Shown here piece by piece: positions 15,229 to 53,577 of a DNA stretch of 64,000 nt. A program made the translations under genes and the position numbers. Each line of letters starts with the position of its first letter. Position 1 is the first letter of the stretch. This stretch comes from Candidatus Aenigmatarchaeota archaeon (GTDB taxonomy: Archaea; Aenigmatarchaeota; Aenigmatarchaeia; CG10238-14): contig JAFCCM010000002.1 of NCBI GenBank assembly GCA_017610225.1, forward strand, positions 1-64,000, in the 5' to 3' direction. Under the pieces are notes generated by a model, which was given only the letters and a program-made list of their open reading frames with translations, was not told the DNA's origin and ran no database searches.

Positions 15229-15264
15229 ATAATTAATTTATAATTCTGAATTAAAAGCATTGAC

Positions 15265-15854: not shown

Positions 15855-15855
15855 T

Positions 15856-26915: not shown

Positions 26916-27028
26916 GGGGTTTTGGCTCAATCTGGCAGAGCGTCTGGCTCCAGTACTTTGTACATGGAAAATTGATTTGATGATATGAAGAAACCAGAAG
27001 GTTGGGGGTTCAAATCCCTCAGACCCCA
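26916..27028 (+). tRNA. tRNA-Trp (CCA) with a 39-nt intron
   Basis: Acceptor GGGGTTT/AGACCCC plus A73, TG at 8-9, D-arm GCTC...GAGC, anticodon stem TCTGG/CCAGA, T-arm GGGGG-TTCAAAT-CCCTC. CCA is at 26950-26952, and the intron 26954-26992 sits at the canonical 37/38 site. Intron TGG (in ACATGG) can pair with CCA to form the bulge-helix-bulge. The 3' part of this gene is the source of the repeats at 27042, 29742, 31548 and 33605. Confidence 0.97.
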
Positions 27029-35478: not shown

Positions 35479-36570
35479 TTAGGATAAATATGGATGTACT
35501 CTATCTATTATGTCACCAACCTTGTTTGACCAATTAGGATCAGTTGCATACCCACCTTCCTGTAAACATTGAATAAATTTCTTTGCATCATCTTTCAGAC
35601 AATCTTTGTAACGCGAAGAAGTTGTTACCTTATTAGTAAAATCATTGACTGAATCACATTTAGTTGAGTAACTTTTAAAATCAGCAGTAATTGCACAATA
35701 ATAAAGATCACCACAATCATTTCCTTCTTCGTCAGGAAATTTAACTATACTACAAAAATCAATATCAAATGTTCCTTCACTATAACACTCCCAAGTTCCC
35801 CAAGAACAACCACTTCCTTTAATTGAGTAAATATTATTAGATTGTTTCCCAACAGGATTACCTAAACTTACAAGACATTCGCCTTTTTGAAGGGTAGTTC
35901 CTTTCCACCCACCTTCATTGATCGGTATTGCATAGAAAACGGTTATTGGTATACCTGAAGTTGCCGAAGCAGAAGATATACAACTTGATAACCCAATTAA
36001 AGGAGATTCACCTCCAGACATTGAATAAAGGAAATCATCTATTTTTTTACTATCCGGTGTTGGTCCAGGTGATGGTGGTTGTGGTGGTATTATAATATCG
36101 CCTTCAAAATTAACTGACAATAGACCTACATTAATCTCCCCTGATGGATATTTTATTGATACAGGTAATTCGAATGCTGGTTTGAATTCATTACCTATAA
36201 TCCATTCCTTATCTGCTTCCAAATCTGTAACATTGATCGAATAATCCACTGAGTATGATATTTCTTGTTTTAATGAATTTACTAAGGAAGGATCTGACAA
36301 TAAAAGATCAAGTTTTTCTGCGTCTAAAACTCCTCTGTAAATTCCAATATCATCAGAGTAATCAAACTCAGTTGAACAGGCAATCTTATCTGAAGATAAT
36401 AAAACATTTGTCAAAATCATTTTTCTTCTTACAATTTCATTTTCTTCGACTATTATTCTTACACGTTGTGATCTCGTAATAAAAAAGAACACTAGCAAGC
36501 CAACTAAACCAATTGCCACTAGACCTATTAACATTTGTGAAAGACTTGATGCTTGTGCTTTAGTTTTCAT
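35479..36570 (-). CDS. Prepilin-like protein carrying a GH73-type glucosaminidase domain
   Basis: 363 residues from ATG 36570; the longer open frame overlaps the upstream gene and lacks a signal. N-terminus MKTKAQASSLSQMLIGL (prepilin-like KA|Q site) and helix to about 31. A beta region (about 65-160) and a Pro-rich linker (161-173) lead to a GH73/FlgJ-like domain (174-363): catalytic E219 in PINEGGW, NNIYSIKGSG (cf. NNLFGIKG), FTNKVTTSSRY and GGYATDPNWSNKVGDII. Such domains cut the glycan strands of murein, a polymer archaea lack. Several added cysteines could form disulfides. Confidence 0.85.
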   Translation of the reverse strand: MKTKAQASSLSQMLIGLVAIGLVGLLVFFFITRSQRVRIIVEENEIVRRKMILTNVLLSSDKIACSTEFDYSDDIGIYRGVLDAEKLDLLLSDPSLVNSLKQEISYSVDYSINVTDLEADKEWIIGNEFKPAFELPVSIKYPSGEINVGLLSVNFEGDIIIPPQPPSPGPTPDSKKIDDFLYSMSGGESPLIGLSSCISSASATSGIPITVFYAIPINEGGWKGTTLQKGECLVSLGNPVGKQSNNIYSIKGSGCSWGTWECYSEGTFDIDFCSIVKFPDEEGNDCGDLYYCAITADFKSYSTKCDSVNDFTNKVTTSSRYKDCLKDDAKKFIQCLQEGGYATDPNWSNKVGDIIDRVHPYLS

Positions 36571-36601
36571 ATTATTCAACCTAAACAATTTAATCAATAA
36601 T

Positions 36602-37909
36602 TTATGTATATCCCCCACTATCACGAATATAAGTTGTAAGAGGACCCGAAACTCCATCGCTTCCAGTTAGTTCTGGATATATTTCGAACGAATCCCAACC
36701 CATAATAGCATAATGGTATATAGCAGCACCTATTACATAATTATCTTTTTGTAATTCAGAATCATACCATTTGAGTTGATTTAAAAAATCATCAGAACTT
36801 GTCTTGGATTTCCACCCACAATCTTCTGTCCCACAAGTATCAATACCAGTCTCTGTAATAACAAGTGGAAGTGTTAAACCATATTGGTCATATACTTTTC
36901 TATGTCTAAGACTTAACCATTCAGAGTCAGATTGCATGGAAGGATTACCATACTCATGTAAAGCCAAATAGTGACCATTATTAGAAGCATAACTCAAAGC
37001 TCCCATAAAATATTCCCATAATTCAATTTCTGGATTTCCAACAGCAAAATTTCCTATACATGCTTTTTGACCAATATTTTCAAGTTTTTTCATTCTTTTT
37101 ATTTCAAACCTTGAATACCATTGCATTCCAGCAGCATCAGTAAGAATCGGTTCATTATAACCTTCCCAACAATCAAAACCAGGATTACCTGATATTAGTC
37201 CTTGATACTTATCAAACCACTCTTCAGCTTTTTGTTCTGGGTTACCAATAGGATTGAGTTGATCGCCATCAAATTTTCTACCAATGATAAAAGTGTTGGG
37301 TGAAATTTGTTTTATTTCCTGAGCCATATCATAACTTTCCATTAATTTTACAATAATGGGTTTTGCTTCTCTTATAAAATCCATTATATGACTTTCTCTG
37401 AATTGTGTTTGAATTCCAAGTTTACTTTTACCAATTGGCGGTATATACGGTGGACTTGGACCAGGTCCTGGGGGTTCAGGTGGTGCATCAGGACAATCTC
37501 CAGATATACACATATTATTAACATAATAACTAACTAACCCATCTTTGATTCTCTTTTCAATTGTAAAGCGAGAGTTAGTTGGTATAGTTCCTCTTGTATC
37601 TATGAGAATTGGTGCAGAACTCTGCTGTATTTCACCATTATGTTCCCTAGAAACGTAAATAGTCCTACCACTAAATCTAACAGAATAGTCACTAGAAGGA
37701 AATTCATAATCTATCCTTATATTACCCGTAGATGCAACAGATGTTGAAATCAGACTTGCCAAATCTTTTGAGACAATTTCTGGATAATTAGAAACAAATG
37801 ATTCAATGGTTTTGGTGATAAATGGAAGAATTACTGGTATCAAGGCTACTATAACGACTATCATCCCAATTATTGTTAATATTTCTGTCACTGCCATTTG
37901 ACCTTTCAT
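36602..37909 (-). CDS. Prepilin-like protein carrying a clan-A-type glycosidase domain
   Basis: 435 residues. MKGQMAVTEILTIIGMIVVIVALIPVIL is the prepilin-type start (KG|Q site). A beta-rich part (about 60-138) and a Pro-rich linker (140-160) precede a TIM-barrel-like domain: acid/base E253 in CWEGYNEP and nucleophile E353 in LVITETGID, spaced as in clan GH-A enzymes. Further motifs ALHEYGNP and AIYHYAIMGWDSF. 31 bases separate its stop from the ATG of the GH73-type gene, so they are cotranscribed. Substrate not predictable. Confidence 0.78.
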   Translation of the reverse strand: MKGQMAVTEILTIIGMIVVIVALIPVILPFITKTIESFVSNYPEIVSKDLASLISTSVASTGNIRIDYEFPSSDYSVRFSGRTIYVSREHNGEIQQSSAPILIDTRGTIPTNSRFTIEKRIKDGLVSYYVNNMCISGDCPDAPPEPPGPGPSPPYIPPIGKSKLGIQTQFRESHIMDFIREAKPIIVKLMESYDMAQEIKQISPNTFIIGRKFDGDQLNPIGNPEQKAEEWFDKYQGLISGNPGFDCWEGYNEPILTDAAGMQWYSRFEIKRMKKLENIGQKACIGNFAVGNPEIELWEYFMGALSYASNNGHYLALHEYGNPSMQSDSEWLSLRHRKVYDQYGLTLPLVITETGIDTCGTEDCGWKSKTSSDDFLNQLKWYDSELQKDNYVIGAAIYHYAIMGWDSFEIYPELTGSDGVSGPLTTYIRDSGGYT

Positions 37910-37989
37910 AACAATAAAATAGTTTTTTGATTAAATTAATTTAACAAAAAGAATATTTGTTCTAATGGTAATAGATATTATAGATAAAA

Positions 37990-38895
37990 ATGAATGAAAA
38001 ATTGTTTGTGTTTGTTTCTCTTTTGTTAATCGTTGTATTACTCTCTGGATGTACTGATGGACCTGTTACAGGCTCGTGTAGTGATACTGGTTTAGATATC
38101 GTGAATTATAACGTCTACCCACTTGAAAAATTATACCAAGGAAATATGGTTACAATTACTTTTTGGTTGGAGAATAAAGGTAGTTCTGATGCGACTGATG
38201 TTGTTGTTAACTTTTTTGACACACCTGGTTTTGAGTTAGTAAGTCTTGAGTGTGAAGGTGGTGAAACTCACGGAAATAGATGTGAAATAGATGAGATATC
38301 TACTGATATAATGTCTGGAAAATGTTTAGGAGAACTAAAAGGAGTCAAAGTCTCGTTGAGGGCGACCAGTGAGGGAAAAAATACTGTTAGTTTTTCTGTA
38401 AACTACAGATATCATGGAAACTCTAAACTTTTGTTCAATGTTTGGGAAAAAGAATCACAAAACCAACATGGAAGCAAACAACACATAAGTACAAATGGTC
38501 CTGTTAAAGTAAATATAGATTCTGAATTCTTATTAAAAAAGATTGTTGATGATGCGACAGAAACTGTGACTGAATGGGTAGAAGAAGGGCAAAAATTCAC
38601 TTTAAATATTGATGCTCAAAATGTTGGTAAATATGGAAAAGGAGTGATAGAAATAGAACCTAAAGATTTTGAAGTTAAACTTAGTTATATAAAACCCATT
38701 GGTGATGGAAATTGTGATTTAACAAAGGGAAGTTCTCACAAACTAAAAAATTCAATTGAAGTCCCAATGAAAAAACCATTGACATGTGATATGGAAGTTG
38801 AAGATATCGGGCAAGAATGGGTACTTGGTGGTATAGAAGTCAACTATAATTATGATTATGAGTTCATCAAACAACAGGAATTTAATATTGAGTAA
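37990..38895 (+). CDS. Surface lipoprotein with CARDB/NEW3-like domains
   Basis: 301 residues. Lipobox VLLSGC with Cys near residue 21. Two beta-sandwich units follow (ITFWLENKGSSDATDVVVNFFDTPG; LNIDAQNVGKYGKGVIEIEPKDF), similar in pattern to the exported part of the neighbour at 38933-40150. Two genes are rightward while the pilin-like genes on both sides run leftward. Possible adhesion or surface-docking protein. Confidence 0.65.
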   Translation: MNEKLFVFVSLLLIVVLLSGCTDGPVTGSCSDTGLDIVNYNVYPLEKLYQGNMVTITFWLENKGSSDATDVVVNFFDTPGFELVSLECEGGETHGNRCEIDEISTDIMSGKCLGELKGVKVSLRATSEGKNTVSFSVNYRYHGNSKLLFNVWEKESQNQHGSKQHISTNGPVKVNIDSEFLLKKIVDDATETVTEWVEEGQKFTLNIDAQNVGKYGKGVIEIEPKDFEVKLSYIKPIGDGNCDLTKGSSHKLKNSIEVPMKKPLTCDMEVEDIGQEWVLGGIEVNYNYDYEFIKQQEFNIE

Positions 38896-38932
38896 AGTTA
38901 TTATTATGTTTTTCTAAATATTCTTAGATATT

Positions 38933-40150
38933 ATGGACCCTGAAGAAGAACGAGTTAAAAGAATGGAAGAAGATTTGAAAAGAAGAGAAGAGATGGAAAG
39001 GAAGAATGTAGAGGCAGAACAAAAACGTCAACAAGAACTCAAGCAAATGCAAACACAAACAAGTGGAAATGTTCAACAAGGTCCGAAGAAAGAATTCCCA
39101 GTTTCAACTGTTATATATATTGTTCTTATTATAGTCGTTGTAGGTATTGTTGTGTATAAAAATGATAGTATACGATTTCAAATCCAAAAAATGGTTAGTC
39201 AAATAAAGACGAAAATACCTGAAGATCTTATTTTCTTTTTAAGTTGTATAAACCCTCTAAATCCAAATAAACCCCCAATTGAACAATGTTTTGGTGGAAA
39301 ACTACCTCAAGAATTAATAAAATATAAAATCATTAGTGTGAGCGTTTTTGATGGAAATATAGGAAAGAAAGTTGAATTAAATGGAGATGAATATGAATTA
39401 TCTATCACAGTTCTAAACTTACTTAAAGATGAAAGATTGGAAAATATCAAAGTTGTTGGAAATATTGAATGTGATAAAGATGATGAAATTAAAGAGAATA
39501 TTGAGCTAACAAACACAGATTATAATAATTTCGGGTTGGATGCGGGAGAAACACATTTAATGACTTTAAAAAGTGATAGTCCTTTAAGTTGTGGTTTACA
39601 AAATTGTAAAGCAACTATAAGCGTATCCTATAAATATGATGTTAGTTTAACACCAGAATTCATGTTTGGTAAAACAAGTGAACTTGCTAGAACAGATATT
39701 GAATTGTTTAAAAAAACTGACCAAGGCCCATTGGCAATAGATTATAGATTTGCACCACGTGCTAATTATCATCCAAAAGCAAATATTGATAATTTAAATC
39801 TGAAATTAATCATCGAAAATAAGGGTGATGGGAAAGCATATATAGATAATTGTAATTTAGAAAAAAAACATGATAATAAAAATTTTTTACATGAAACAGA
39901 TTGTGAATGTTCTGAAGTTAATTTTGAACTAGAAAGGGGAGATCAAGAAGTTTGTGAATGTAGTTATAATCTTGACAAAAATGAAATAAACAGTTTTTTA
40001 GAAAAAAATTCATATAAAACAGTCCTATTTGAGTTCAAATGTAATGATTATGAATATACCTCAATAATAGGACCATACGTTGTTGAAGTTGATGATTCTA
40101 AATGTACTGATGAATATACTCAAACTACTGAGGATGTTATTCCTGTTTAA
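38933..40150 (+). CDS. Membrane protein: cytoplasmic coiled coil, TM helix, exported beta domains
   Basis: 405 residues. Charged helix about 1-45 (EEERVKRMEEDLKRREEMERK), Gln/Pro linker, TM about 57-77 (VSTVIYIVLIIVVVGIVVY), then a short Cys pair and two extracytoplasmic beta-sandwich regions rich in Asn, Asp and Cys (LNLLKDERLENIKVVGNIEC; KLIIENKGDGKAYIDNCNLE). Related in layout to the lipoprotein upstream. It may couple a cytoplasmic component to the surface appendage encoded around it. Confidence 0.62.
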   Translation: MDPEEERVKRMEEDLKRREEMERKNVEAEQKRQQELKQMQTQTSGNVQQGPKKEFPVSTVIYIVLIIVVVGIVVYKNDSIRFQIQKMVSQIKTKIPEDLIFFLSCINPLNPNKPPIEQCFGGKLPQELIKYKIISVSVFDGNIGKKVELNGDEYELSITVLNLLKDERLENIKVVGNIECDKDDEIKENIELTNTDYNNFGLDAGETHLMTLKSDSPLSCGLQNCKATISVSYKYDVSLTPEFMFGKTSELARTDIELFKKTDQGPLAIDYRFAPRANYHPKANIDNLNLKLIIENKGDGKAYIDNCNLEKKHDNKNFLHETDCECSEVNFELERGDQEVCECSYNLDKNEINSFLEKNSYKTVLFEFKCNDYEYTSIIGPYVVEVDDSKCTDEYTQTTEDVIPV

Positions 40151-40176
40151 TATTCTAAAACATTATACCAATTAAT

Positions 40177-42495
40177 TCAAGTAGGACATGCACCACATGC
40201 ATCTGAGTCAAAATAATCACAAGGATTTAATCTATTGCCAGATGAATCTTTTATCTGAAAATCTAGATGAGGAGCAGTAGCACGACCTGTTTCACCTGAT
40301 AAACCAATTACATCTTCTTTATAAACAGTATCATCGACATTTACTTTAATCTCACTCAAATGAGAATATCTGAATGTGTATTTTTTACCTTCAATTTCTG
40401 ATTCAATCTCAATATAATTTCCATAAATTTCATCGTTAACAATAGAAACAACCTTACCATCTGTTACTGAATATATTTCTGTTCCTAAAGGTGCCCTTAT
40501 ATCAATAGATGGATGAAACTCTGTACCTTCACCAGTGATTGGATTCTTTCTTATACCATAACAACTAGTGATAACCTCATAATCTGTAGGCCAACTCAAA
40601 TCAAAATCGGGAATTTCTGGTTCTGGTAAATCCGGTGTTTCACCTTCACAAACATTAGTTTCTGCTTCAAGTAGATTTTCTTCTTTCACAACAAATTTGT
40701 AAAGTTTTACATCATCTAAGAAAAAGTCTTTTGGATCAGGGTAGAGTGTTTTTAAACGTATATCAAGATTCACACCATCATCACCTTGAACAGTAATTTC
40801 ATTGTATGTATGAATCCATGTTCTGTCAATCCCTGTAAACCATTTTGTATTTTCAGTAAGAATACTATCAGTAAGACTTATACCTATTTGCGCAGTCTTA
40901 GGATCAAAGTCACTTTTCTTTTCATAATGTAAATGTGTTTGAACTGGAACATCAATAATAATCATTGTATCTTTTGGTATGTCAATTGTTTGTTTAAGAC
41001 TGCTATCTATTATATAATGTAAGTTGAAAACTTTCTGACATCTTTCACCTTCTAAAATTAATGGTTTAGCTCCATCTATTCTTTCAATTTCTGGTAAATC
41101 TGAGTTTTTTAATGTATTAGTTTCTGGGTTATTAACATGATCTTCCAATCCCCATCCAGGTGCCATATGCTGAGAATGACCTACTTTTATTGGATCACCT
41201 TCAAAACTAGGATTTGTTAAAATATTTGTAATATCTTCATAAACATTTCCGGAAAGGACGCGGAACTTTAGAGTAATTGGTCTAAATTTTGTTGTTTTCT
41301 CGACTGGATCGTAAACTGGATATTTTTCTCCAGAAGTGTCAGTTATTTCAACTGAAACAATAGCCGAAGCAAAATAATCATAATTATAAGTTATATCAGT
41401 TATTAATCTATAACGCTCACTACAGTATGAACATTTATAACTGCCACCAGCATCATCACAAAAACAACCTTTATATAAACCATCTGGATAATAAACTTTT
41501 CTACAGCCTTTAATTCCATGATAATAACTAGGAGGGCATTCTCCTTCTTTTTGGCTATAACCACCACAATTCACTGAATCTGAAATTTTACAATCACATT
41601 CATCATCCTCGCTACCTTTAGTTGAAGAAGGTTCCCCGATAAAAGATGGATCGCTAATTTTTTTAACCTCAACTTTAATACCATTACTCGGATCATTCAA
41701 TTCAGATAACTTAGTTTGAACCAACAAACTCATATGACTTTCCCAACCTGGACAATATTCTTCTAATACTTCTTCTGAGGTTGGTTTATCGTTTTCACAT
41801 ATACGTTTTCCTTTAAAAAAACAGTTTCCATAATCATCACAAAGATTAATTTCTTTACAACTTTCAGGCATATTTTCATTTGCTTCTTCTATTTTTTCTT
41901 TAACTGAATCTGTATCTAAAAATTTCTCTTTGCCCAGGCCATACATCTTCGCAACATTTGTTTTTATTTCTCTTTCTAAAATAGAATCATCTTCAATATG
42001 TAATTTTTCTCTATCTAAACTTATTTTACTCCCATATGCCCGGGCTATAACTTTTCCTTCATCATCAGCATCCCGACTGATAAAAGAATACATATATCCT
42101 GAAATGCCAACTTCTCCTGTATCTAATTCCCCAACATAATTATTCAATATTTCTAACATTAAAACACTGGTTGATGAAAAATCAGGAAAATTCTGGACTC
42201 CGTATACTCTCCAATAAGGAACACAATCATAAGATTCAGATCCACCCATATTATGAAATCCTCCTCTTGGACTTGTGAGATAGATTGACTGATAAAAAGA
42301 ATATTCTAGGGCTTGAGATAAAGCCATTCTTGTCAGTTCAAATTTGTTTATTCCTTCGATGACATTTACTTCCAATAAAGCTCTTCTACTAACATTAGTC
42401 CTGCTAAACGTCGAGAAAAAAACTATTCCATAAATAATTAAAGAGACTGTCAAAACTACCAATAAAATCACGAATGGACCTATCCCTTTACTCAA
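40177..42495 (-). CDS. Prepilin-like M23 (LytM-type) metallopeptidase
   Basis: 772 residues. MSKGIGPFVILLVVLTVSLIIYGIVFF is a prepilin-like start (KG|I). A large extracytoplasmic region follows with a Cys-rich part (about 215-360) and a jelly-roll-like section (about 410-610). The C-terminal about 130 residues are an M23 endopeptidase: EFHPSIDIRAPLGTEIYSV (HxxxD ligands), FRYSHLSEI (catalytic His) and ATAPHLDFQI, where the usual HxH is H-L-D, so one zinc-ligand His is replaced by Asp. M23 enzymes cut peptide cross-links in murein. Its start overlaps the upstream pilin-like gene by four bases. Confidence 0.88.
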   Translation of the reverse strand: MSKGIGPFVILLVVLTVSLIIYGIVFFSTFSRTNVSRRALLEVNVIEGINKFELTRMALSQALEYSFYQSIYLTSPRGGFHNMGGSESYDCVPYWRVYGVQNFPDFSSTSVLMLEILNNYVGELDTGEVGISGYMYSFISRDADDEGKVIARAYGSKISLDREKLHIEDDSILEREIKTNVAKMYGLGKEKFLDTDSVKEKIEEANENMPESCKEINLCDDYGNCFFKGKRICENDKPTSEEVLEEYCPGWESHMSLLVQTKLSELNDPSNGIKVEVKKISDPSFIGEPSSTKGSEDDECDCKISDSVNCGGYSQKEGECPPSYYHGIKGCRKVYYPDGLYKGCFCDDAGGSYKCSYCSERYRLITDITYNYDYFASAIVSVEITDTSGEKYPVYDPVEKTTKFRPITLKFRVLSGNVYEDITNILTNPSFEGDPIKVGHSQHMAPGWGLEDHVNNPETNTLKNSDLPEIERIDGAKPLILEGERCQKVFNLHYIIDSSLKQTIDIPKDTMIIIDVPVQTHLHYEKKSDFDPKTAQIGISLTDSILTENTKWFTGIDRTWIHTYNEITVQGDDGVNLDIRLKTLYPDPKDFFLDDVKLYKFVVKEENLLEAETNVCEGETPDLPEPEIPDFDLSWPTDYEVITSCYGIRKNPITGEGTEFHPSIDIRAPLGTEIYSVTDGKVVSIVNDEIYGNYIEIESEIEGKKYTFRYSHLSEIKVNVDDTVYKEDVIGLSGETGRATAPHLDFQIKDSSGNRLNPCDYFDSDACGACPT

Positions 42496-42905
42496 TCAAT
42501 CACCAAGTACAATTTTTCTGTTAATTTGTTTTTGTTATAAGGTAAGACTATCTTAGTTTCTTTTGTAAAGTTTTTTGGATTGGATTTCTCGGCTAATGTT
42601 TTCGATGAGGTAGACAATTTATAAGATCCACTCTCAACCAAGGAAGATAATTTATCGTCAATATTTCCTAACCCTTTATCAAGAACAAGATATTCTCCAA
42701 TCGCTTGTTGTTCTGTTATTTTTCCATTTTCATTAGTAGAAGATAATAAAGATATCAAAACCGTCTGGATTTTTTCATAACTTTGTTCATATTTTACCAC
42801 TTCCACAATAGGTTCAGTGAGAAATTTTATAGACACGAGTATTCCAACAACAATTGCTAATGAAACAACTGTCAATATAATTGGTAATGATATCTGACCT
42901 TTCAT
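42492..42905 (-). CDS. Pilin-like protein
   Basis: 137 residues. N-terminus MKGQISLPIILTVVSLAIVVGILV (KG|Q prepilin site and hydrophobic helix), then a short exported alpha/beta part (LLSSTNENGKITEQQAIGEYLVL ... ETKIVLPYNKNKLTEKLYLVI). Size and layout fit a structural or minor pilin. Overlaps the M23 gene by ATGA-type coupling. Confidence 0.72.
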   Translation of the reverse strand: MKGQISLPIILTVVSLAIVVGILVSIKFLTEPIVEVVKYEQSYEKIQTVLISLLSSTNENGKITEQQAIGEYLVLDKGLGNIDDKLSSLVESGSYKLSTSSKTLAEKSNPKNFTKETKIVLPYNKNKLTEKLYLVID

Positions 42906-42944
42906 GATAATAATTTGGATTAGCAGATTAAATTTTTACAACAA

Positions 42945-43217
42945 TTATATTATACATTCAGTCCAAGTAGTTGGTTCATCAATACCCACATCTTCGCAAC
43001 CAAACGGCTGTACACTATCCCAATCGTCTGGTCTTTCACGAGTAAACAACCATCTCACACAATAACCTATTCGTTTTTCCACACATGATGCTTTAGTTGC
43101 TTCGGTAATAGTAGGTTTTAACCAATTCATCAAGAAAACAATAGTAAAAATAAGGAATATTGCCATTGTGGCTATCAAGAATATTGTATCTGATGATATT
43201 GATGCTTTAAGTGACAT
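42945..43217 (-). CDS. Small pilin-like protein, Cys-containing
   Basis: 90 residues. MSLKASISSDTIFLIATMAIFLIFTIVFL (KA|S site and helix), then a Cys-bearing exported tail (ASCVEKRIGYCVRWLF, FGCEDVG, TECII). The motif I-x-YCxRW recurs in the next protein upstream (LLAYCTRWSAVG), so the two are paralogues. Confidence 0.7.
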   Translation of the reverse strand: MSLKASISSDTIFLIATMAIFLIFTIVFLMNWLKPTITEATKASCVEKRIGYCVRWLFTRERPDDWDSVQPFGCEDVGIDEPTTWTECII

Positions 43218-43228
43218 GATTTATAATT

Positions 43229-43543
43229 CTAACTTTGTCCTAATAATGATTTACACCTTGCTTCTAAAGATGTAGCTGTACCAAGACCAGCAAAACCATC
43301 TATTGCTTTACATTTACCACCATTAGTAGTTGCATACCATAATTCATCACTTACTCCAGTAGTAGGATAACCTACAGCAGACCATCGCGTACAATAAGCT
43401 AACAGCTGTCCATTACAATAAGCCTCATTTATCTGTCCTCCTCCTCTCCCCAACCATGTCCAAACAAGATAACCAAGACCAACAATTACTATAAGACCAA
43501 CTGCAAGAGAAACAATTAAATTAGTAGCTGACATACCCTTCAT
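43229..43543 (-). CDS. Small pilin-like protein, candidate major pilin
   Basis: 104 residues. MKGMSATNLIVSLAVGLIVIVGLGYLVWTWL (KG|M site), then Cys-containing tail AYCNGQLLAYCTRWSAVGY and KCKAIDGFAG ... ARCKSLLGQ. Paralogue of the 90-aa protein just downstream (shared YC-RW motif). Short size and cystine-capped tail are plausible for a filament subunit. Part of the leftward pilus operon. Confidence 0.72.
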   Translation of the reverse strand: MKGMSATNLIVSLAVGLIVIVGLGYLVWTWLGRGGGQINEAYCNGQLLAYCTRWSAVGYPTTGVSDELWYATTNGGKCKAIDGFAGLGTATSLEARCKSLLGQS

Positions 43544-43604
43544 TACATATACACCTTATTTTAATTTTACTTTTTTGAGTTATTAAATGTTTTTGCTTTC
43601 TTTA

Positions 43605-46001: not shown

Positions 46002-46002
46002 T

Positions 46003-46224
46003 CTAACAACCAACACACATCTGTTGACCAACTAACCTAGTCAAACTTCCTAAAAATCCTTCACAAAATACTTTACATTTTATCCCTAATATAATCTTTT
46101 CTACTGAATCATTGATAACACTTGTTGTTTTAGACAGAAAAAAAACTAACAAAGCCAAAGCTAACAAACCAAGTATTAAGGATATTATAAACGTCAATGC
46201 TTTTCCCATTACACCCTTTTTCAT
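46003..46224 (-). CDS. Small pilin-like protein
   Basis: 73 residues from ATG 46224, which overlaps the stop of the 42-aa gene as ATGA; the longer frame to 46314 is only that gene's shadow. MKKGVMGKALTFIISLILGLLALALLVFF (KG|V site), then SKTTSVINDSVEKIILGIKCKVF and a Cys-bearing end (MCVGC). Minor pilin candidate. Confidence 0.68.
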   Translation of the reverse strand: MKKGVMGKALTFIISLILGLLALALLVFFLSKTTSVINDSVEKIILGIKCKVFCEGFLGSLTRLVGQQMCVGC

Positions 46225-46349
46225 GGTTTCACAATCCCCTTTAAAATATTTATTGCAGACGAATAAAATAAAGATAACACTATTAGGACTACCGCCAACA
46301 AAATAATAAACCAAACCATAAAATTCGAGACATCACCTTTATTGTTCAT
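46221..46349 (-). CDS. 42-aa pilin-like mini-protein
   Basis: Translated by hand: MNNKGDVSNFMVWFIILLAV, then hydrophobic helix and INILKGIVKP. It has the same Lys-Gly then hydrophobic helix layout (KG|D) as its neighbours. Its ATG overlaps the platform-protein stop (TAATG) and its stop overlaps the next start (ATGA), strong evidence that it is translated. Too short to carry more than the assembly helix. Confidence 0.65.
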   Translation of the reverse strand: MNNKGDVSNFMVWFIILLAVVLIVLSLFYSSAINILKGIVKP

Positions 46350-48301
46350 TATATCACCATCACTGAAACTATAGATGTTAATATCAAATAAAGCACAATA
46401 ACAGTAATTGAATATATCACAAAAGCTGTCATCAACGTTTTACCCAAATCATAATTTCTCTGTATTTTTTCTTCTCCATGTTCTATTTTACCCAAAAACA
46501 TAGAAAGCATTATCACAATTTCAATCATGTATATACCAACTATTATCTGAAAATAATGAACCGGAATAATTTGGTCGATTGCAATAATTGAATTGAATAC
46601 CCCCCCACCAACAGAACCTATTGGTCCATAACTTCCTAGTTGAGATTGAAAAGATTCTACCCACCCACTCAAACTAATCAACATATGCATCATCATAGCA
46701 GTCAAAGCCACAACAACTCCAGAAGTCAAAGGTGACAAAATTATAGATTGTATTCTCATTGTTGAAACAACATCAGTAAGCATCTCTTTCAAATATTCTT
46801 CAACGTTCTTCATGTTCTTCAGATAGTTGGAAATAGATATCATTGCATCTGATAAAAATTTTGACCCTGACTTGGAAATTTCATAAATGGCTTTGAAAAT
46901 TGCTTTTATAAGACGGGATGGATATTTGTATATTGCACCAGATTTTTCATCAAACAAAGCCTGCCAAAAATTCATACCAAGCATCTGGATGTTGTTAATA
47001 ATAATACCAAAAAACTTGGAAATTTTCAATTCATTTATTTTAGTTCTCATCTTTGCTACATTACTTTCAATAGAAGCACCATTCCTTAACTGATAGCCTA
47101 ATTGAAAGAGAACAAGATAAAGTTCATTTTCCATTGTAATTATTTCATCTTTTTGTCCAAGTTTAGGAATACTCGTTAAAAAAGAATAAGTGACTATACC
47201 ACTGACAATTCCAAAGAGAATCAATAAGGAATACAATATCAAAGCAAAACTAAAACTTTCCGTTGCTGTAGATATACCATAAAAACCAATCCCAGATAAG
47301 ACAATAGTAATTAAAATTGAGATTAAAATTTTAGGATTTAATAATTTCAGTATTCCTTTCTTTTTGTTAATCGGAATTTCTGGTTGATGAAAAGTTGTAG
47401 GTCTTTTTCTAAGAGAAGACATCATTAGGAAAAATACTATTACCGGAAGGATTATATCATAACCTATTGCGATGAACAAAGGTTTCACAGTATCTGGCAT
47501 AAAGATTGTTACCATTGGGAAAAATATCAAACCAATTATTGGAAGTAAAATTCCGAGTGCATTAATAATAGTTAATGAAGCTTTCAAATCTTGAGAATAA
47601 TGTTTCATTCTATTTTTAGTTCCTTCAAGAATTATCTTTACAGCTTCATTCAAAACATCTTCTCTTTCATTCATACTGCCATAAGAAGATGTTTTTATTA
47701 GATTAAGAGCCTGTGTAAACTCTTCATTTTCCATTCTCCATTTTTTAATAAAATCATCCAAAGCATGTTCTGCAGAATAATATCTTCCATTATAAATATC
47801 CCAAATCAATTCTGTTAAATCTATTGATAATGAACCTCTAAGATTTGAGGCTGCAAAAATAATTGCACTTTCTAAGTTGCTTTTAACTTTCATAGAAATA
47901 GTCATGTATAAAATTGCCAAAACCATTTCAGAACTTGCTTCAATTTTATATCTTCTTGCATATTGAAATGAGTAATTATAAAAATAATAACCGATACCAA
48001 AAGAACCAAAAACAAAAATAAGCGTTAAATGTATTGGAAAAAATCCAAGTACTCCAAATAAAACACTAAATAAAAAGAGAATTATTGTCAAAAAAATAGA
48101 AACAGTAAACACAGATTTTGGAGTTACATTTAGATGAGAAAAATCTATTGCTCCCTGTAATTTTTCTTCAGTTTTTTTACCAACAGGGATTGACACTAGT
48201 TTTTCTGATAAATTACATAATTTTTCATAAGAATTTAATTTTCTGGATTTCAATCCTATTTTAACCAATTCTTTTTCCTTTATTTCTGAAATACTAAACA
48301 C
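46349..48301 (-). CDS. Pilus assembly platform protein, FlaJ/TadC-like, double T2SF
   Basis: 650 residues with two type II secretion F-like halves: each has a helical cytoplasmic part (IASSEMVLAILYMTISMKVKSNLESAIIFAASNLRG; LVLFQLGYQLRNGASIESNVAKMRTKINELKISKFFG) and pairs of membrane helices. About nine or ten transmembrane helices in all. FlaJ and TadC have this architecture and hold the pilus base in the membrane. Its start overlaps the ATPase stop by eight bases. Confidence 0.88.
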   Translation of the reverse strand: MFSISEIKEKELVKIGLKSRKLNSYEKLCNLSEKLVSIPVGKKTEEKLQGAIDFSHLNVTPKSVFTVSIFLTIILFLFSVLFGVLGFFPIHLTLIFVFGSFGIGYYFYNYSFQYARRYKIEASSEMVLAILYMTISMKVKSNLESAIIFAASNLRGSLSIDLTELIWDIYNGRYYSAEHALDDFIKKWRMENEEFTQALNLIKTSSYGSMNEREDVLNEAVKIILEGTKNRMKHYSQDLKASLTIINALGILLPIIGLIFFPMVTIFMPDTVKPLFIAIGYDIILPVIVFFLMMSSLRKRPTTFHQPEIPINKKKGILKLLNPKILISILITIVLSGIGFYGISTATESFSFALILYSLLILFGIVSGIVTYSFLTSIPKLGQKDEIITMENELYLVLFQLGYQLRNGASIESNVAKMRTKINELKISKFFGIIINNIQMLGMNFWQALFDEKSGAIYKYPSRLIKAIFKAIYEISKSGSKFLSDAMISISNYLKNMKNVEEYLKEMLTDVVSTMRIQSIILSPLTSGVVVALTAMMMHMLISLSGWVESFQSQLGSYGPIGSVGGGVFNSIIAIDQIIPVHYFQIIVGIYMIEIVIMLSMFLGKIEHGEEKIQRNYDLGKTLMTAFVIYSITVIVLYLILTSIVSVMVI

Positions 48302-50531
48302 CTTTTAATTCATTTTTAAACCAAGATTCCCACTTTCTAAGTATTTCTTTAGATTCTAACGAACCAACTTCTTTTCTAACATCATTTGAAATCATATGAA
48401 ACATGTCATTTGATTTAACAACCCATTCTGCCTCAAGTATATCTTTTCTTTTCAATTTACTCGCATAATCAACAATTTTCTGTTTAACATTTCCTCTTAA
48501 CATAATATTATCCCAAACTGCATCCCAATTACTATGCCATTCTTTGACACGTTTTGAAATTTCATTAATAATATATGATTCTCCGTTGATTAGAGTATCT
48601 GTTGGCTTCAACCTATCTTCTTTAGAAGAATATTCCATCAAATTAACAAATCCATTTTCTTCCATAGGATCATCTTTCCAGTGCTTTCTTATTTCCGTCA
48701 CTTCAACTACTCTTCTGTCTCTATGTAATCCATCAGATGACTTAATCATACCAGAAATTGTTATAATATCGGTCGCTTTAAAACTGGTTGTTGGTACTCC
48801 CAAATCATTTACCACCCTATCAAACACACCATAAGCAGATTCACCATGAATTGTTCCAGCAACTACATTTGCTAAAGCACCGATACGCATAGCTTCCCAT
48901 AAAGCCTGTGCTTCTTTACTTCTGACTTCACCTATTATTAAACAAGAATCACCGAGACGTAAAGCAGTTCTTAAAGCATCATCAGCAGGTAATTCTGATT
49001 CTACTCTTGTGATAACCGATCGAGATTTCATTCTTTCAATATTGTATCCAAGATTTCTTAATTGAACTATCGGGAGTTCGAGTGTGTCTTCAACTGTTAC
49101 TATTCTAAACTTTCTCATTATTTCAAGCATGGTCGCTCCCAATAGACTGGTTTTACCACTTGATCTTCCACCAGCAAATATTAATGATCTAGAACCCTGA
49201 ACAAGAAAACTCATTAAACCTGAGAATAAAGGGTCAAAAAATTTAACATCCAAGAACAAAGGATAAGTCCATGGTTTATCTCTATGCCTTCTCAAAGAAT
49301 AACCAATCCCACCTGGACTAAGTGTTTTTGTAATAGCAGCAACTCTTGCCCTTCCACCTGGAACTAAAAGTTCTGTATCTAACACAGGATTAGCTTCATC
49401 TAATGGTCTTCCTGATAACATCCTGAAACGAGTGGCCCAACTTTCTGCATCTTCTTTAGTCGGAATTAAATTAGTCTCACATTCTTCGAAATCACTATGA
49501 CCAACAAAAACAGGCATTAAACCAATTGGAGAATTTATATAAATATCCTGTAATTTAGGATCTGCTAACAAAACTTCAAGTATTCCAAAACCAGCAGTGT
49601 ATCTTGCAAGTATATTTGCCATTTCCTTTAATTCTACAGAAGAAAGGGATACTCCCTTTTCATTCGCTATTTTCAAGATAGTGTCTTTTCCCATATTCAT
49701 AAAAATTTCTCTTGCTTTTTCTGGTTGTATAAATTCTGTTTTAGCTGGTTTGTGTTCAGCAAGATATTTTCTCGCATTATCAAGAATTGAATATTTATTG
49801 TCAGGTAGTTTGAATTCAGGTGGAGTTATATGATAAAAAGGTCTTGCTTTACCAGGAACTTTGAAAATTTCAACAAGAATATTTCCTGGAAGTTTATATC
49901 TATCAATCATCTTTGATTTTTTTGGTGGGATAGACACATATCTTGTCAACATAAAAATTGGCCTTATCAATGGTGTAAATATTTTCCTGTAAAGAGAACG
50001 ATCACCCAATCTATATCCATGAATTTTATCTTTAACAGATTTTATAATTTTTGTTGATTCAAGTTTGTTATTGATTCCAGTCAAAAGTCTAACATAGTCA
50101 TTGTATGATTTTTTCAAGTTTCCTTTACTTTTCTTTACATTTGTGTTATATTTTCTAATAAGTCTTTTAATCTGGATATATGCAGCAATAGGATCTCTTC
50201 TCAACATTTCTTTTAAAACAATTTCTAGTTCTTTCGATATACCAGGTATAAACTTACTAAGTTCTCTCACAAAAGAACTTTCTAAAATTCTATCCTCATT
50301 CAAAAGTTTATCATAAAGATTTGCTATTTCAATCAAAATTTTGGTTTGATCATAATTATATTCATATTCTCTTTTTTTTGTTAAAATAATTCTTTCAACT
50401 TTTTTAACTTCTCTAATTTTATCAATAGTTTTAGCCATACAGACATCAAAATCTTCTATAGAAGAACCGAAAACACACCCTAAACAATTAACTTTTACTA
50501 TTCCATCGATATATTCATAGTCACAAACCAA
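48294..50531 (-). CDS. Pilus/archaellum-type secretion ATPase (FlaI/VirB11 family)
   Basis: 745 residues. N-terminal region (about 1-290) is family-variable and begins with a Cys-containing motif VKVNCLGCVFGSS. ATPase core: Walker A FAGGRSSGKTSLLGA, then TVEDTLELP (Asp box), Walker B-like LIIGEVRSKEAQALWEAMRIGALANVVAGTIHGES. Powers pilus polymerisation through the platform protein next to it. First gene of the long leftward operon 50531 to about 40177. The adjacent prepilin-like proteins argue for a pilus rather than DNA transfer. Confidence 0.92.
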   Translation of the reverse strand: MVCDYEYIDGIVKVNCLGCVFGSSIEDFDVCMAKTIDKIREVKKVERIILTKKREYEYNYDQTKILIEIANLYDKLLNEDRILESSFVRELSKFIPGISKELEIVLKEMLRRDPIAAYIQIKRLIRKYNTNVKKSKGNLKKSYNDYVRLLTGINNKLESTKIIKSVKDKIHGYRLGDRSLYRKIFTPLIRPIFMLTRYVSIPPKKSKMIDRYKLPGNILVEIFKVPGKARPFYHITPPEFKLPDNKYSILDNARKYLAEHKPAKTEFIQPEKAREIFMNMGKDTILKIANEKGVSLSSVELKEMANILARYTAGFGILEVLLADPKLQDIYINSPIGLMPVFVGHSDFEECETNLIPTKEDAESWATRFRMLSGRPLDEANPVLDTELLVPGGRARVAAITKTLSPGGIGYSLRRHRDKPWTYPLFLDVKFFDPLFSGLMSFLVQGSRSLIFAGGRSSGKTSLLGATMLEIMRKFRIVTVEDTLELPIVQLRNLGYNIERMKSRSVITRVESELPADDALRTALRLGDSCLIIGEVRSKEAQALWEAMRIGALANVVAGTIHGESAYGVFDRVVNDLGVPTTSFKATDIITISGMIKSSDGLHRDRRVVEVTEIRKHWKDDPMEENGFVNLMEYSSKEDRLKPTDTLINGESYIINEISKRVKEWHSNWDAVWDNIMLRGNVKQKIVDYASKLKRKDILEAEWVVKSNDMFHMISNDVRKEVGSLESKEILRKWESWFKNELKGV

Positions 50532-50590
50532 ATTCTCACCAATAACTAAATTATATTTGTAAGGTTACCCAATAATTATTATTGATATTT

Positions 50591-50989
50591 ATGGTATTTG
50601 AAAGAAAGCCACCTCAACAACAAATTGGAATTAGTACTGAAGTTTCAAGAATTACAAATGATAACACAAGAAGGATACGTATTTTGGAACAGAGTTTAGA
50701 ATCAACAAGAACAAGAACAGGCTCACTTGAAGAAAGAATGATAGATGAAATGGGTGACATCAAAAAATGGATAGATCAGCTATCTTTAGACGTAAAGGAG
50801 ATATCAAAAGATTTAAAAGAGATAAGAACAGAAATTTCTAGAGTAAATAAAGATTTAACAAAGACAGCCAGGAAAACAGAAATTAAAGAGTTAGAAAGTT
50901 TATTAGATTTATATAGTCCAATAAAATCACATTTTGTTACAAAGGATGAAGTTATGAGATTAATGGAGAGGGAATTAGATAAAGTTTAA
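50591..50989 (+). CDS. Coiled-coil protein next to pilus ATPase (archaellum FlaC/D-like position)
   Basis: 132 residues from ATG 50591 (a TTG at 50582 is also in frame). Helical: TRRIRILEQSLESTRTRTGS, IDQLSLDVKEISKDLKEIRT, with a short C-terminal domain YSPIKSHFVTKDEVMRLMERELDKV reminiscent of FlaC/FlaD C-terminal helices. Divergent from the secretion ATPase by about 60 bases. May be a cytoplasmic accessory ring component; inferred from position. Confidence 0.68.
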   Translation: MVFERKPPQQQIGISTEVSRITNDNTRRIRILEQSLESTRTRTGSLEERMIDEMGDIKKWIDQLSLDVKEISKDLKEIRTEISRVNKDLTKTARKTEIKELESLLDLYSPIKSHFVTKDEVMRLMERELDKV

Positions 50990-51045
50990 TAAACAGAAGA
51001 ATTTAAATTTAAATTAGAAAAAGAATTAATATTAAGGTGTAAAAT

Positions 51046-51759
51046 TTGATAAAATTTCTCGGAGCAAATAAAAAAAAGGAACCTGAAAAAACACCAAGAA
51101 TAGGAAAAGGTATGGTTCCAATAGAAAAAGTAAAATCTCTTAGTAATAAAGGTTTTTCAGAACCAGAAATGATTGACGTCCTAAGAAAAGAAGGTTATAG
51201 TTCTGAAGAAATAGACTCTGCATTAACTCAAGCATTGAAAATTGGTGTAACAGGTGAATCAGGAGACTCTATGACAAAACCACCGACACTTCAAGAATTA
51301 CAAACCCAACAAATACAAACTCCTTTACAACCTCCAATTCAACCTCAAATGCCTGCTATTCCACAAAATGCTCAAATACCACAAGTACCAGAACCTTCCA
51401 TGCAATTTCAACAAACATATTATCCTGAAGGAGATTATAACACAGAAGAATTGGTTGAATCAATAGTACAAGAGAGGATGGGTGAATTGAATAGTAAATT
51501 AACAGAATTTCGGTCTAAATATAGTAATCTAGAAAGAAAAATGGCAGATCTTCATAACCAATTATCAGTTGTTTCTAAAAGTAAGAGTGAATCTGAACAT
51601 GTAATTGTGAGTAAATTAGATTCTTACGGTGATACTCTAGCAGATATGAATGCACGACTTTCCAGTCTTGAAAAAGCTTTTAAGGAAGCATTACCGGCAT
51701 TAATAGAAAGTGTCAGAGCATTAACTGATCTTGTTGGAAGATTTAAGAGGGAAGCTTAA
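51046..51759 (+). CDS. UBA-like plus coiled-coil protein of the pilus locus
   Basis: 237 residues. A UBA/CUE-like module (VKSLSNKGFSEPEMIDVLRKEGYSSEEIDSALTQAL) at about 25-65, a long Gln/Pro-rich linker (about 85-130), and a C-terminal coiled coil (about 140-237). TTG start at 51046 follows AAGGTG by a normal spacing. Appears with the same neighbours in the plus-strand accessory operon. Cytoplasmic scaffold is a fair guess. Confidence 0.68.
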   Translation: MIKFLGANKKKEPEKTPRIGKGMVPIEKVKSLSNKGFSEPEMIDVLRKEGYSSEEIDSALTQALKIGVTGESGDSMTKPPTLQELQTQQIQTPLQPPIQPQMPAIPQNAQIPQVPEPSMQFQQTYYPEGDYNTEELVESIVQERMGELNSKLTEFRSKYSNLERKMADLHNQLSVVSKSKSESEHVIVSKLDSYGDTLADMNARLSSLEKAFKEALPALIESVRALTDLVGRFKREA

Positions 51760-51795
51760 TCAAGATATTTATTATCACTTTCTCAATTATTTCTT

Positions 51796-52332
51796 ATGAC
51801 TAACCCTTTTCAGATAATTGCAGAAAAACTCGGAGAACTTGGGGTATATGACTTTCTTCTACCTTGGTTAATAACTTCTGCCATCATCTGGGCATTATTG
51901 AAGAAATCAAATCTTTTCGGGGAAAATGCTATAGTAATCAATTCTGTATTATCTATATCAATTTCATTCTTCGTCTGGGGATTTATAATATTTACGGGAG
52001 ATGCTAGTGTTGGAGCATCTTTATCTAAATTTTTTACACAAATGGTCTTTGTTGCTATAGGTTTTGTAGTAATACTTGTTATCGGAAGTATGTTTTTCCC
52101 AGATTTCACTGAGGCATTAAAAGACAAAATTCCACCAACAATGTTTTGGATAGTAATGGTAATAGGTATTATATTGCTCATTAGCACTGGTCTTTTCAAG
52201 TTAGGGGATATATTTTATAATCTTATACACTCTTTTTCAAAAGTTCCTGGTGGAGATGTTGGTCTATTAATTATAGCTATTATTTTTTTGGTGTTATTGT
52301 TGCTGATAATAAGTGCAGTGGGGGGAGGTTAA
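51796..52332 (+). CDS. Polytopic membrane protein, paralogue 1 of 3
   Basis: 178 residues, about five transmembrane helices. Starts FQIIAEKLGELGVYDFLLPWLITSAIIWALLKKSNLFGE; the pattern [LG-x-ydFLlPwllTsaI-w-LL-KS-lFg] is repeated at the start of the next two genes. Same operon as 52333-53577 with no spacers. Not seen in well-known pilus systems, so an archaeal-specific membrane component is suggested. Confidence 0.7.
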   Translation: MTNPFQIIAEKLGELGVYDFLLPWLITSAIIWALLKKSNLFGENAIVINSVLSISISFFVWGFIIFTGDASVGASLSKFFTQMVFVAIGFVVILVIGSMFFPDFTEALKDKIPPTMFWIVMVIGIILLISTGLFKLGDIFYNLIHSFSKVPGGDVGLLIIAIIFLVLLLLIISAVGGG

Positions 52333-52968
52333 GTGGTAGACGTATTTACAATAGTAATAAAGAAACTTCAAGAAATGGGGGCATTCAATTTCTTATTTCC
52401 ATTCATGTTAACAACTGCTATATTTTACGGCCTCCTCAGGAAATCAAAATTATTTAGTGTGACAAAAAAAGAGTATAGAAGAGATAAAGGCGGGAAGCAA
52501 ATGACAGAAGAAGTCGAAGTTGGAAGTTCTGTCAATGCTATTATTGCTTTAGTTGCTGGGTTTATGGTATGGGCTTATCCTATTCTTGCTGGAATTAACA
52601 TAGAACAACAGTTGTCAATGTTCTTCATGCAAGGAACTATTGTTACTTTAGTTCTTATTGTAGTATTAATGTTTACAAGTATGTTTCTTCCATCAAATTT
52701 ACCTAAACAATTACAAGAACAATTTTTAAAAGGAAATAAAGTAGGTATAATCCTAATTGGATCTGTTATAGTAGGAGTTATAATACTTGTCACAAGTGGA
52801 TTGATGAACCTGATAGTAGGACCTATATTCACGAAAATAGATTTAGGAAACGACACTGTATTGACAGTTGTAGTGTTAGGTTTATTAATTCTTCCGCTAA
52901 TATTTATATTTAGGGAAGGTAAAGGAGATGATGGTAGGGATGATGAAGGCAACAATGGAGGGGAATAA
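52333..52968 (+). CDS. Polytopic membrane protein, paralogue 2 of 3
   Basis: 211 residues. GTG start directly follows the preceding TAA. Opening MVDVFTIVIKKLQEMGAFNFLFPFMLTTAIFYGLLRKSKLFS shows the same motif as its neighbours. It has an insertion with RRDKGGKQMTEEVEVG before the second helix and an acidic, Gly-rich C-terminus (GDDGRDDEGNNGGE). About five helices. Confidence 0.7.
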   Translation: MVDVFTIVIKKLQEMGAFNFLFPFMLTTAIFYGLLRKSKLFSVTKKEYRRDKGGKQMTEEVEVGSSVNAIIALVAGFMVWAYPILAGINIEQQLSMFFMQGTIVTLVLIVVLMFTSMFLPSNLPKQLQEQFLKGNKVGIILIGSVIVGVIILVTSGLMNLIVGPIFTKIDLGNDTVLTVVVLGLLILPLIFIFREGKGDDGRDDEGNNGGE

Positions 52969-53577
52969 ATGAGTTTACTTTCAAATTTAATAAATATTTT
53001 ACAAAGTCAAGATATTTTTCAATATTATTTACCATTTCTACTGACCTTCTCAATATTCTATGCTTTGTTGATTAAGTCTAAAATTTTCGGGGATGGTGTT
53101 GGGAAAAAAATAAGTTTAATTGTAGCTTTAATTGCTGGACTTTATGTTACTATAGCTACACCTATTGGTATCGGTTTAACTCAATTTTTTGCAATATTTT
53201 TTGCACAATCTACTGTATTTTTAACATTAATAATCGTTATAGCCATAACCACAGCAGCTTTAGCAACACCAATGTTTTTAGGTGAGAATACAAATCTTCT
53301 TGGAGGTAAAAGTAAATTTATTGCTATTGGAATTATTGTTCTAGTTAGTCTAGCTATGTTTGCAAGTAGTATGAAAAAAATGCCTGGTTTTCCAGGAATT
53401 TCTTTACCAGGTGTCTCATCAGATGATCTCGCTTTGGGACTTTTACTTGTAGCAACTGGACTTATGGTTTGGTGGGCACAAAGAGGGGAAGATCCAGAAA
53501 CAATAGAAGCTAAAAAGATGATAAAAAGGGCTAAAGAGGAGGCGCGAAAAAAGCAATTACAAAAACCAGATGGATGA
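52969..53577 (+). CDS. Polytopic membrane protein, paralogue 3 of 3
   Basis: 202 residues. ATG follows the preceding stop immediately. LLSNLINILQSQDIFQYYLPFLLTFSIFYALLIKSKIFGDG is the shared motif. Five helices and a basic cytoplasmic tail (KKMIKRAKEEARKKQLQKPDG). Last gene of the plus-strand pilus accessory operon. Confidence 0.7.
   Translation: MSLLSNLINILQSQDIFQYYLPFLLTFSIFYALLIKSKIFGDGVGKKISLIVALIAGLYVTIATPIGIGLTQFFAIFFAQSTVFLTLIIVIAITTAALATPMFLGENTNLLGGKSKFIAIGIIVLVSLAMFASSMKKMPGFPGISLPGVSSDDLALGLLLVATGLMVWWAQRGEDPETIEAKKMIKRAKEEARKKQLQKPDG

Follow-up and report, generated by a model that had tools for sequence, protein, structure and literature searches.

A candidate type IV filament locus of Aenigmatarchaeota whose prepilin-type proteins carry exchangeable, mostly murein hydrolase-type domains

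Modular type IV pilins, in which a further domain is grafted onto a pilin, are known from bacteria, e.g., PilB and PilC of Streptococcus sanguinis (PMC8179133, PMC9934059); and prey is killed by the Kil pilus of Myxococcus xanthus, a Tad pilus whose tips are interchangeable (PMC12075869). Peptidoglycan hydrolases have been reported from archaea, including Nanoarchaeota and other DPANN lineages, with two haloarchaeal enzymes shown to kill a bacterium (PMC12352652), and murein transglycosylases are known from DPANN archaea (PMC8204110, PMC9723730, PMC10936187); all of these sources are used here in part. We identified a pilus-type locus in a 64-kb stretch of contig JAFCCM010000002.1 from a Candidatus Aenigmatarchaeota archaeon (this whole stretch is referred to as the window), in which prepilin-type proteins carry additional C-terminal domains (their cargo), mostly of murein hydrolase families. 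The operon, the fusions within single open reading frames (ORFs), the exchangeable cargo and the murein-type families are established by sequence; the locus probably encodes an archaeal type IV filament system with modular minor pilins, which would deliver the mostly murein-active cargo to bacteria.

Like PilB and PilC, the proteins found here consist of a stem with a class III signal and an unrelated C-terminal module, and the modules of bacterial pilins are diverse, a peptidase module being mentioned; but the modules studied there are adhesins (vWA, lectin), whereas here the carriers are archaeal, the cargo mostly belongs to murein hydrolase families, and orthologous stems are bare or carry different cargo (the excerpts of PMC8179133 and PMC9934059 used here; the word “hydrolase” is absent from both main texts). 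The locus resembles the Kil pilus in its Tad-type machine, its minor pilins with variable exposed domains and a proposed adaptation to bacterial targets; unlike the system in the window, the Kil pilus is bacterial and partnered by a needleless type III system, and killing has been shown for it, the likeness to the window system being one of design only (PMC12075869, in excerpt). That paper does not call the Kil tip domains hydrolases, and neither “hydrolase” nor “peptidoglycan” appears in its main text. Archaeal type IV pili and archaella likewise have a VirB11-type ATPase, a TadC-like platform and many small pilins per locus, and show modular evolution with differing pilin sets (PMC4858521, in part); the same two words are absent from the main text of this 2016 census. 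The archaeal and DPANN murein enzymes are treated, in the portions of PMC12352652, PMC8204110 and PMC9723730 drawn on here, as secreted or large extracellular proteins, and neither these portions nor those used of PMC10936187 place them on pilins (the main text of PMC12352652 contains neither “pilus” nor “pilin”, and that of PMC9723730 does not contain “pili”). Murein-hydrolase prepilins in archaea are described in none of the full-text literature matches listed, subscription papers and preprints lying outside the scope of that search. An earlier note on this DNA had known of no described pilus built this way; the modular pilin idea and a Tad pilus with interchangeable tips are both known, and what is new here is archaeal stems with exchangeable murein hydrolase cargo, for which we found no description.

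The cargo is exchanged, as comparison of the sequences shows, both on conserved stems and between scaffolds. A protein search with the M23-bearing prepilin of the window returned seven matches, including the copy in the window itself (P0121). Two of the others, P0123 and P0124, align with the first ~630 residues of the query (38% and 35%), with C-terminal GH73 and SLT domains, respectively, in place of M23. The search with the GH73-bearing prepilin returned eight matches, and its stem is common to P0129, P0132 and P0133, which end in SLT (21.6 bits, barely above the cut-off of 21.3), GH5 (47.4 bits) and a C39-type peptidase (34.5 bits; this sequence stops at the contig end), respectively. The GH73 domain of the window is 62% identical to that of P0123 (on the M23-type stem), 47% to that of P0130 (on a scaffold with a type II anchor) and 45% to that of P0131 (on a lipoprotein-like scaffold); and an SLT domain is 50% identical between two different stems. 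The borders between stem and cargo are located directly after the stem.

The same is seen in related loci. L142 and L143 retain the neighbourhood of the window gene for gene: PCMT, Alba, the GH73 stem, the glycosidase stem, a lipoprotein-like gene, an anchored protein and the M23 stem, then three small pilins, the propeller-type gene, platform, ATPase and coiled coils (the 73-residue pilin has a counterpart in L142, and none among the ORFs listed for L143 at the limit of 70 amino acids). Both loci have only bare stems in place of the GH73 and glycosidase prepilins (150 and 145 residues in one, 134 and 137 in the other), and in both the M23 stem bears SLT and an N-acetylmuramoyl-L-alanine amidase (Amidase_2, E 1e-29 and 7e-28). 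A good part of the gene order is conserved in L001, where the orthologue of the M23 stem bears SLT and C39 domains and the anchored protein has a C39 domain; the M23-stem homologues of L010 and L011 stop at the stem end, with no Pfam domain. The homologues of the propeller gene in L001, L142 and L143 match its N-terminal part and are without a Pfam domain. Since orthologous stems are bare or carry differing domains, the conserved pilin stems carry exchangeable cargo.

The window is archaeal, as it contains an archaeal signal recognition particle (SRP) RNA and, by profile search, an Alba gene (PF01918, E 2.4e-20) and topoisomerase VI subunit A. The closest named relatives of the pilus ATPase are proteins of Aenigmarchaeota/Aenigmatarchaeota, and the best relatives of the contig are named likewise; an ATPase locus that is 65% like the window (L006) comes from a record titled Heimdallarchaeota, a label that is probably a binning error. 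On the minus strand, the ATPase is followed by a platform-type membrane protein and then by eight genes with a class III-type start, four short (73, 90, 104, and 137 residues) and four long, the long ones having a WD40-type propeller, an M23 domain, a putative glycoside hydrolase and a GH73 domain as a further C-terminal domain. Two plus-strand genes lie between the prepilin genes, and two coiled-coil genes and three polytopic membrane proteins are divergent from the ATPase. The hydrolase-prepilin fusions are single ORFs, sited between the Alba gene and the ATPase. The features of the locus are:

35479-36570, minus strand: modular prepilin, 363 residues, stem with predicted GH73 glucosaminidase cargo (about 35479-36099; PF01832); the start at 36570 lies within a longer ORF
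36602-37909, minus strand: modular prepilin, 435 residues, class III start, stem with putative glycoside hydrolase cargo (about 36602-37429)
37990-38895, plus strand: lipoprotein-like protein, 301 residues (from sequence; homologues at the same place in L142 and L143)
38933-40150, plus strand: type II membrane-anchored protein, 405 residues (from sequence), no recognised cargo in the window; homologues bear GH73 (P0130) or C39 (L001)
40177-42495, minus strand: modular prepilin, 772 residues, stem of ~630 residues with M23 cargo (about 40177-40605; PF01551)
42492-42905, minus strand: small class III-type prepilin, 137 residues (class III rule; homologues in related loci)
42945-43217, minus strand: small class III-type prepilin, 90 residues (class III rule; homologues in related loci)
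43229-43543, minus strand: small class III-type prepilin, 104 residues; homologues in L001 (65% over 58 residues) and L143 (72% over about 65 residues)
43605-46001, minus strand: modular prepilin, 798 residues, start MSGKG, WD40-type beta-propeller at the C-terminus (PF19056)
46003-46224, minus strand: small class III-type prepilin, 73 residues, MKKG start; homologues in L001, L010 and L142
46349-48301, minus strand: platform-type polytopic membrane protein, 650 residues, directly downstream of the ATPase
48294-50531, minus strand: pilus-assembly-type ATPase, FlaI/TadA-like, 745 residues (PF00437)
50582-51759, plus strand: two divergent coiled-coil genes, 135 and 237 residues; homologues in 62 and 61 of 80 ATPase loci
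51796-53577, plus strand: three consecutive polytopic membrane proteins, 178, 211 and 202 residues, divergent from the ATPase

The earlier note's pairing of ATPase and platform is borne out: the former matches PF00437 (E 1.1e-14), with the archaellum ATPase FlaI (E 2.3e-35) and TadA (E 3.9e-33) as best NCBIfam matches, both under the equivalog cut-offs; the latter has no Pfam match above cut-off, but homologues of it were found in 58 of the 80 loci fetched with the ATPase. Homologues of the three polytopic proteins are present in 22, 20 and 27 of these 80 loci, several of which end at contig ends, and the three presumably belong to the system. Intein-type domains occur among the ATPase relatives (PF14890, mostly together with PF14528, in P0002, P0015, P0038, P0041, P0078, P0084, P0088, P0092, and P0097); elsewhere in the window, the topoisomerase VI subunit A (2127-4652, minus strand) is split by an intein with a LAGLIDADG domain, and a 113-nucleotide tRNA predicted by Rfam (26916-27028, plus strand) is absent from the ARAGORN list and possibly contains an intron.

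Three of the four cargo domains were recognised by profile, in agreement with the earlier note, which had placed them C-terminal to prepilin-type N-termini. The GH73 cargo belongs to that family by profile (PF01832, E 1.2e-15), by modelled fold (a match to FlgJ 5dn5, E 8.1e-07) and by a Glu that aligns with the one at the catalytic position in FlgJ-type rows and is kept in P0123, P0128, P0130 and P0131; it is predicted to be a glucosaminidase. The M23 cargo is a member of the M23 fold by profile (PF01551, residues 660-758, E 5.6e-23) and by its model, which matches LytM and ShyA (LytM 2b13, TM score 0.77 by target) as well as the LytM domains of EnvC and DipM, although its HxH motif is altered (see below); full-length Foldseek matches of this model with TM scores near 0.1 (e.g., large secreted pore-forming proteins) were disregarded. 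The propeller matches PF19056 with 38.6 bits (cut-off 22.5). For the fourth, which had been called a clan-A-type glycosidase, we found no match in Pfam, NCBIfam or PDB sequences (best PDB E 0.73), and the clan A assignment is one by motifs; only two homologues were found in the 156 genomes of the phylum census described below (L222 and L223). Two Glu motifs (WEGYNE and VxTExGID) are invariant in these three sequences, so a glycoside hydrolase is plausible. A 780-residue protein encoded elsewhere in the window (12886-15228, minus strand), with a hydrophobic start, glycosidase-like motifs and no Pfam or NCBIfam match, is weakly similar to this cargo (E 0.017). Amidase_2, Amidase_3, SLT and GH73 are murein-type families, and glucosaminidase, transglycosylase, amidase and endopeptidase jointly cover the main kinds of bonds in murein.

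Class III-type starts were called by a rule of our own ([KR][GA], then a 17-residue uncharged hydrophobic stretch), applied to window ORFs of at least 60 amino acids. It flagged nine ORFs in the window, eight of them the minus-strand genes of the locus and one elsewhere (675-956), and since they are concentrated in the operon, chance scatter is rejected. Of the nine prepilin-type proteins with Lys-Gly/Ala that the earlier note had counted at the locus, eight were found; the platform protein is not flagged. We then compared hydrolase ORFs of the phylum (98 read, 96 of them untruncated, in 60 genomes, being part of all matches, with L001 outside the set) with background ORFs of at least 130 amino acids lying more than 4 kb away: class III-type starts are found in 42/96 and 29/214, respectively (one-sided Fisher p 1.5e-8; this test and the next count ORFs as independent, and genomes of shared ancestry were all counted). 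Because secreted proteins generally have hydrophobic N-termini, the test was repeated on ORFs with an N-terminal helix only, giving 43/61 vs. 26/64 (p 7e-4; one truncated ORF was taken in); the excess of class III starts on hydrolases is real, and more modest in the helix-only comparison. At least one class III hydrolase is present in 34 of the 60 genomes. Thirteen of the 96 ORFs are M23 ORFs shorter than 185 amino acids, none with a class III start; short M23 proteins of this size, with neither a class III start nor a strong N-terminal helix, in L182-L184 and L186-L195 (Aenigmatarchaeota) probably form a separate, intracellular family.

Among 107 class III ORFs of at least 200 amino acids (a set partly from loci picked for hydrolases, thus enriched and no unbiased census), Pfam identified M23 in 11, SLT in six, Amidase_2 and GH73 in two each, and Amidase_3, YkuD, C39_2, M15_4, PG_binding_1 and SLT_2 in one each; other domains are Laminin_G_3 (two), C-type lectin (one) and VWA_2 (one). 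Both metal motifs are kept in 16/24 class III M23 domains of the phylum set. A regular expression for SLT active sites matched 2/19 class III SLT ORFs, which we judged to reflect too narrow an expression and to be no sign of loss; SLT cargo was checked by eye in P0124, P0129 and L001 only, and there Glu-Ser and MQI are kept.

For the distribution of these genes, we searched 156 genomes from the phylum to which G001 belongs (the genome that contains L001) with curated profile cut-offs. Genomes with hydrolases above cut-off number 55 for M23, 45 for SLT, nine for GH73, 10 for Amidase_2 and four for Amidase_3; and 67 of the 156 have one or more of SLT, GH73, an amidase and an M23 ORF not shorter than 185 amino acids. 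ATPase relatives (E<=1e-60) are present in 142/156 genomes and the prepilin peptidase PF01478 above cut-off in 123/156; the murein transpeptidase PF00905 was found in 0/156, with 10/14 control genomes positive. A role of the hydrolases in murein of the cell's own is rejected, because none of the 156 genomes has PF00905; and the cargo in relatives is largely murein-directed, N-acetylmuramoyl-L-alanine amidases included. Both results support the view of the earlier note, murein-dismantling enzymes in archaea without murein.

The hydrolase genes also recur with ATPase and platform genes in related genomes. Where a hydrolase and an ATPase lie on one contig within 20 kb, 18/19 hydrolases are downstream (5.5 to 17.3 kb, in 15 genomes) and one is upstream; this count is based on 11/11 GH73 rows, 79 M23 rows (five low-scoring ones omitted), 59 SLT rows (nine omitted, being low-scoring rows or second pieces of one ORF) and 63 of the listed ATPase rows, picked from genomes with hydrolases. 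Thirteen of these 18 share the strand of the ATPase and five are on the opposite strand: one is a 172-residue M23 without a signal, and four (in G002, G003, G034 and G035) are at the end of the pilin genes, placed like the anchored protein of the window. L149 encodes downstream of its ATPase a 1203-residue class III-type protein with PKD, YkuD (L,D-transpeptidase) and Amidase_3 domains (12892-16503). In a second arrangement, present in several genomes without an ATPase nearby, SLT and M23 genes are close together among other class III-type genes:

L155:1887-5817: SLT + M23 cluster
L156:6971-10942: SLT + M23 cluster
L157:5674-9206: SLT + M23 cluster
L158:6412-9869: SLT + M23 cluster

Comparable SLT and M23 pairs were observed in L163-L167. 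In the phylum of L072 (record titled Woesearchaeota), M23 is above cut-off in 90/279 genomes sampled from a larger phylum, and 10/27 untruncated loci (of the 30 best loci, three being truncated) have a class III-like start.

Taken together, the locus combines a secretion-superfamily ATPase adjoining a platform protein with several subunits that are class III-type by our rule; GH73, M23 and the propeller are on class III-type stems, and the GH73 and glycosidase genes have bare-stem orthologues. Pfam matches, class III signals (by our own rule only) and conservation with the ATPase and platform genes, the lack of any of which the earlier note would have counted against its proposal, were all found. 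In the system we propose, a stem with a class III signal would be handled by ATPase and platform like any pilin, with the exchangeable domain at its C-terminus; the stems would be cleaved by an A24 prepilin peptidase, the small prepilins may form a filament or pseudopilus, and the modular prepilins may be placed at the filament tip or the cell surface. On contact, the cargo would cut or grip the bacterial wall, and the archaeon would kill, feed on or attach to the bacterium; the exchange of cargo may track changing bacterial targets. The outcome is perhaps like that of the Kil pilus with its interchangeable tips. A stronger version, which we regard as quite possible though short of probable, is a polymorphic pilus-borne weapon of DPANN archaea, the pilin stems being sockets for changing GH73, M23, SLT, amidase, C39 and M15 domains.

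Several observations weigh against delivery to bacteria by a filament. Filament, processing, activity and contact are all deduced from genes, so what stands of the appendage that the earlier note saw holding hydrolases against bacteria is the recurrence of the fusions with pilus genes, while filament, cargo placement, activity and target are conditional. As 29/214 background ORFs are flagged, individual class III calls are uncertain, and 54/96 hydrolase ORFs have no class III-type start; the stem models have low confidence (mean predicted local distance difference test scores, pLDDT, of 64 and 56), so that a pilin fold is putative. A hydrolase lies within 20 kb downstream of the ATPase in only 15/156 genomes, many contigs being short. 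Related cargo is also found on type II anchors and on a lipoprotein-like protein; the pilus is thus not its sole carrier, and since plain membrane anchors bear it too, surface display would be the essential point. The M23 domain of the window keeps HxxxD, but HLD replaces HLH (the third zinc ligand being Asp), likewise in its near copy P0122; Asp is able to bind zinc, so this domain may still be active. The changed ligand, one of three, would suit another explanation, that the domains, some of them altered, bind the bacterial wall without cutting, the pilus anchoring the archaeon to a bacterial partner; the LytM domains of EnvC and DipM, among the fold matches of this M23 domain, are non-enzymatic regulators, and 8/24 class III M23 domains lack one of two motifs in the examined slice. 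However, the remaining 16 keep both, the GH73 Glu is kept, and some of the eight slices are shortened by the bounds of the profile match, so the motif may fall outside; we consider adhesion of this kind improbable.

The scaffolds other than pilins would also fit scavenging, i.e., fusions on the surface or on a short pseudopilus that digest shed murein or dead bacteria as food and leave living cells alone. C39 and M15-type peptidases and GH5 would fit digestion, and PMC12352652, in the part used here, leaves scavenging possible; yet cargo exchange on conserved stems and a pilus operon exceed what digestion needs, an objection weakened by the fact that the data do not distinguish live from dead targets. 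We hold scavenging to be unlikely, if well worth keeping in mind; delivery, scavenging and adhesion overlap, and our estimates for them are not exclusive. That the cargo instead acts on the envelope of the cell itself or of an archaeal host appears very improbable. In its favour, cultivated DPANN archaea are described as needing archaeal hosts (PMC11291902, in part), and M23, C39 and GH5-type enzymes are able to act on other polymers. Amidase_2, Amidase_3, SLT and GH73 are nevertheless murein-type, and PF00905 is absent from all 156 genomes; the loosening of a host envelope, which the earlier note had also suggested, finds little favour here, because murein is bacterial. Finally, wrong binning or a chance fusion is scarcely credible: the relatives are mostly metagenome bins, but the fusions are single ORFs between the Alba gene and the ATPase, and the window has an archaeal SRP RNA; contamination is rejected because three assemblies (the window, L142 and L143) share the same gene order, and this synteny largely excludes an artefact.

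We therefore return to modular pilins that would deliver cargo to bacteria, and to what they would mean. How archaeal peptidoglycan hydrolases are deployed has been called “arguably the most intriguing question” (PMC12352652, in the excerpt used), and the locus is a concrete, testable candidate device for their delivery. The survey in that paper required a wall-binding domain (again from the part used); as PG_binding_1 is present in only 1/107 class III ORFs, surveys based on wall-binding domains are expected to miss most such proteins. Of the 60 genomes inspected, at least 34 have similar fusions, so the window exemplifies a pattern that recurs in the phylum, and the stems illustrate clearly the evolution of a filament subunit via cargo exchange. 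The finding bears on which organisms the uncultured Aenigmatarchaeota touch: if the stronger version given above is true, an archaeon without murein of its own would use contact to bore into, feed on or hold onto bacteria, and bacteria would be the direct prey or partners of a group so far cultured with archaeal hosts.

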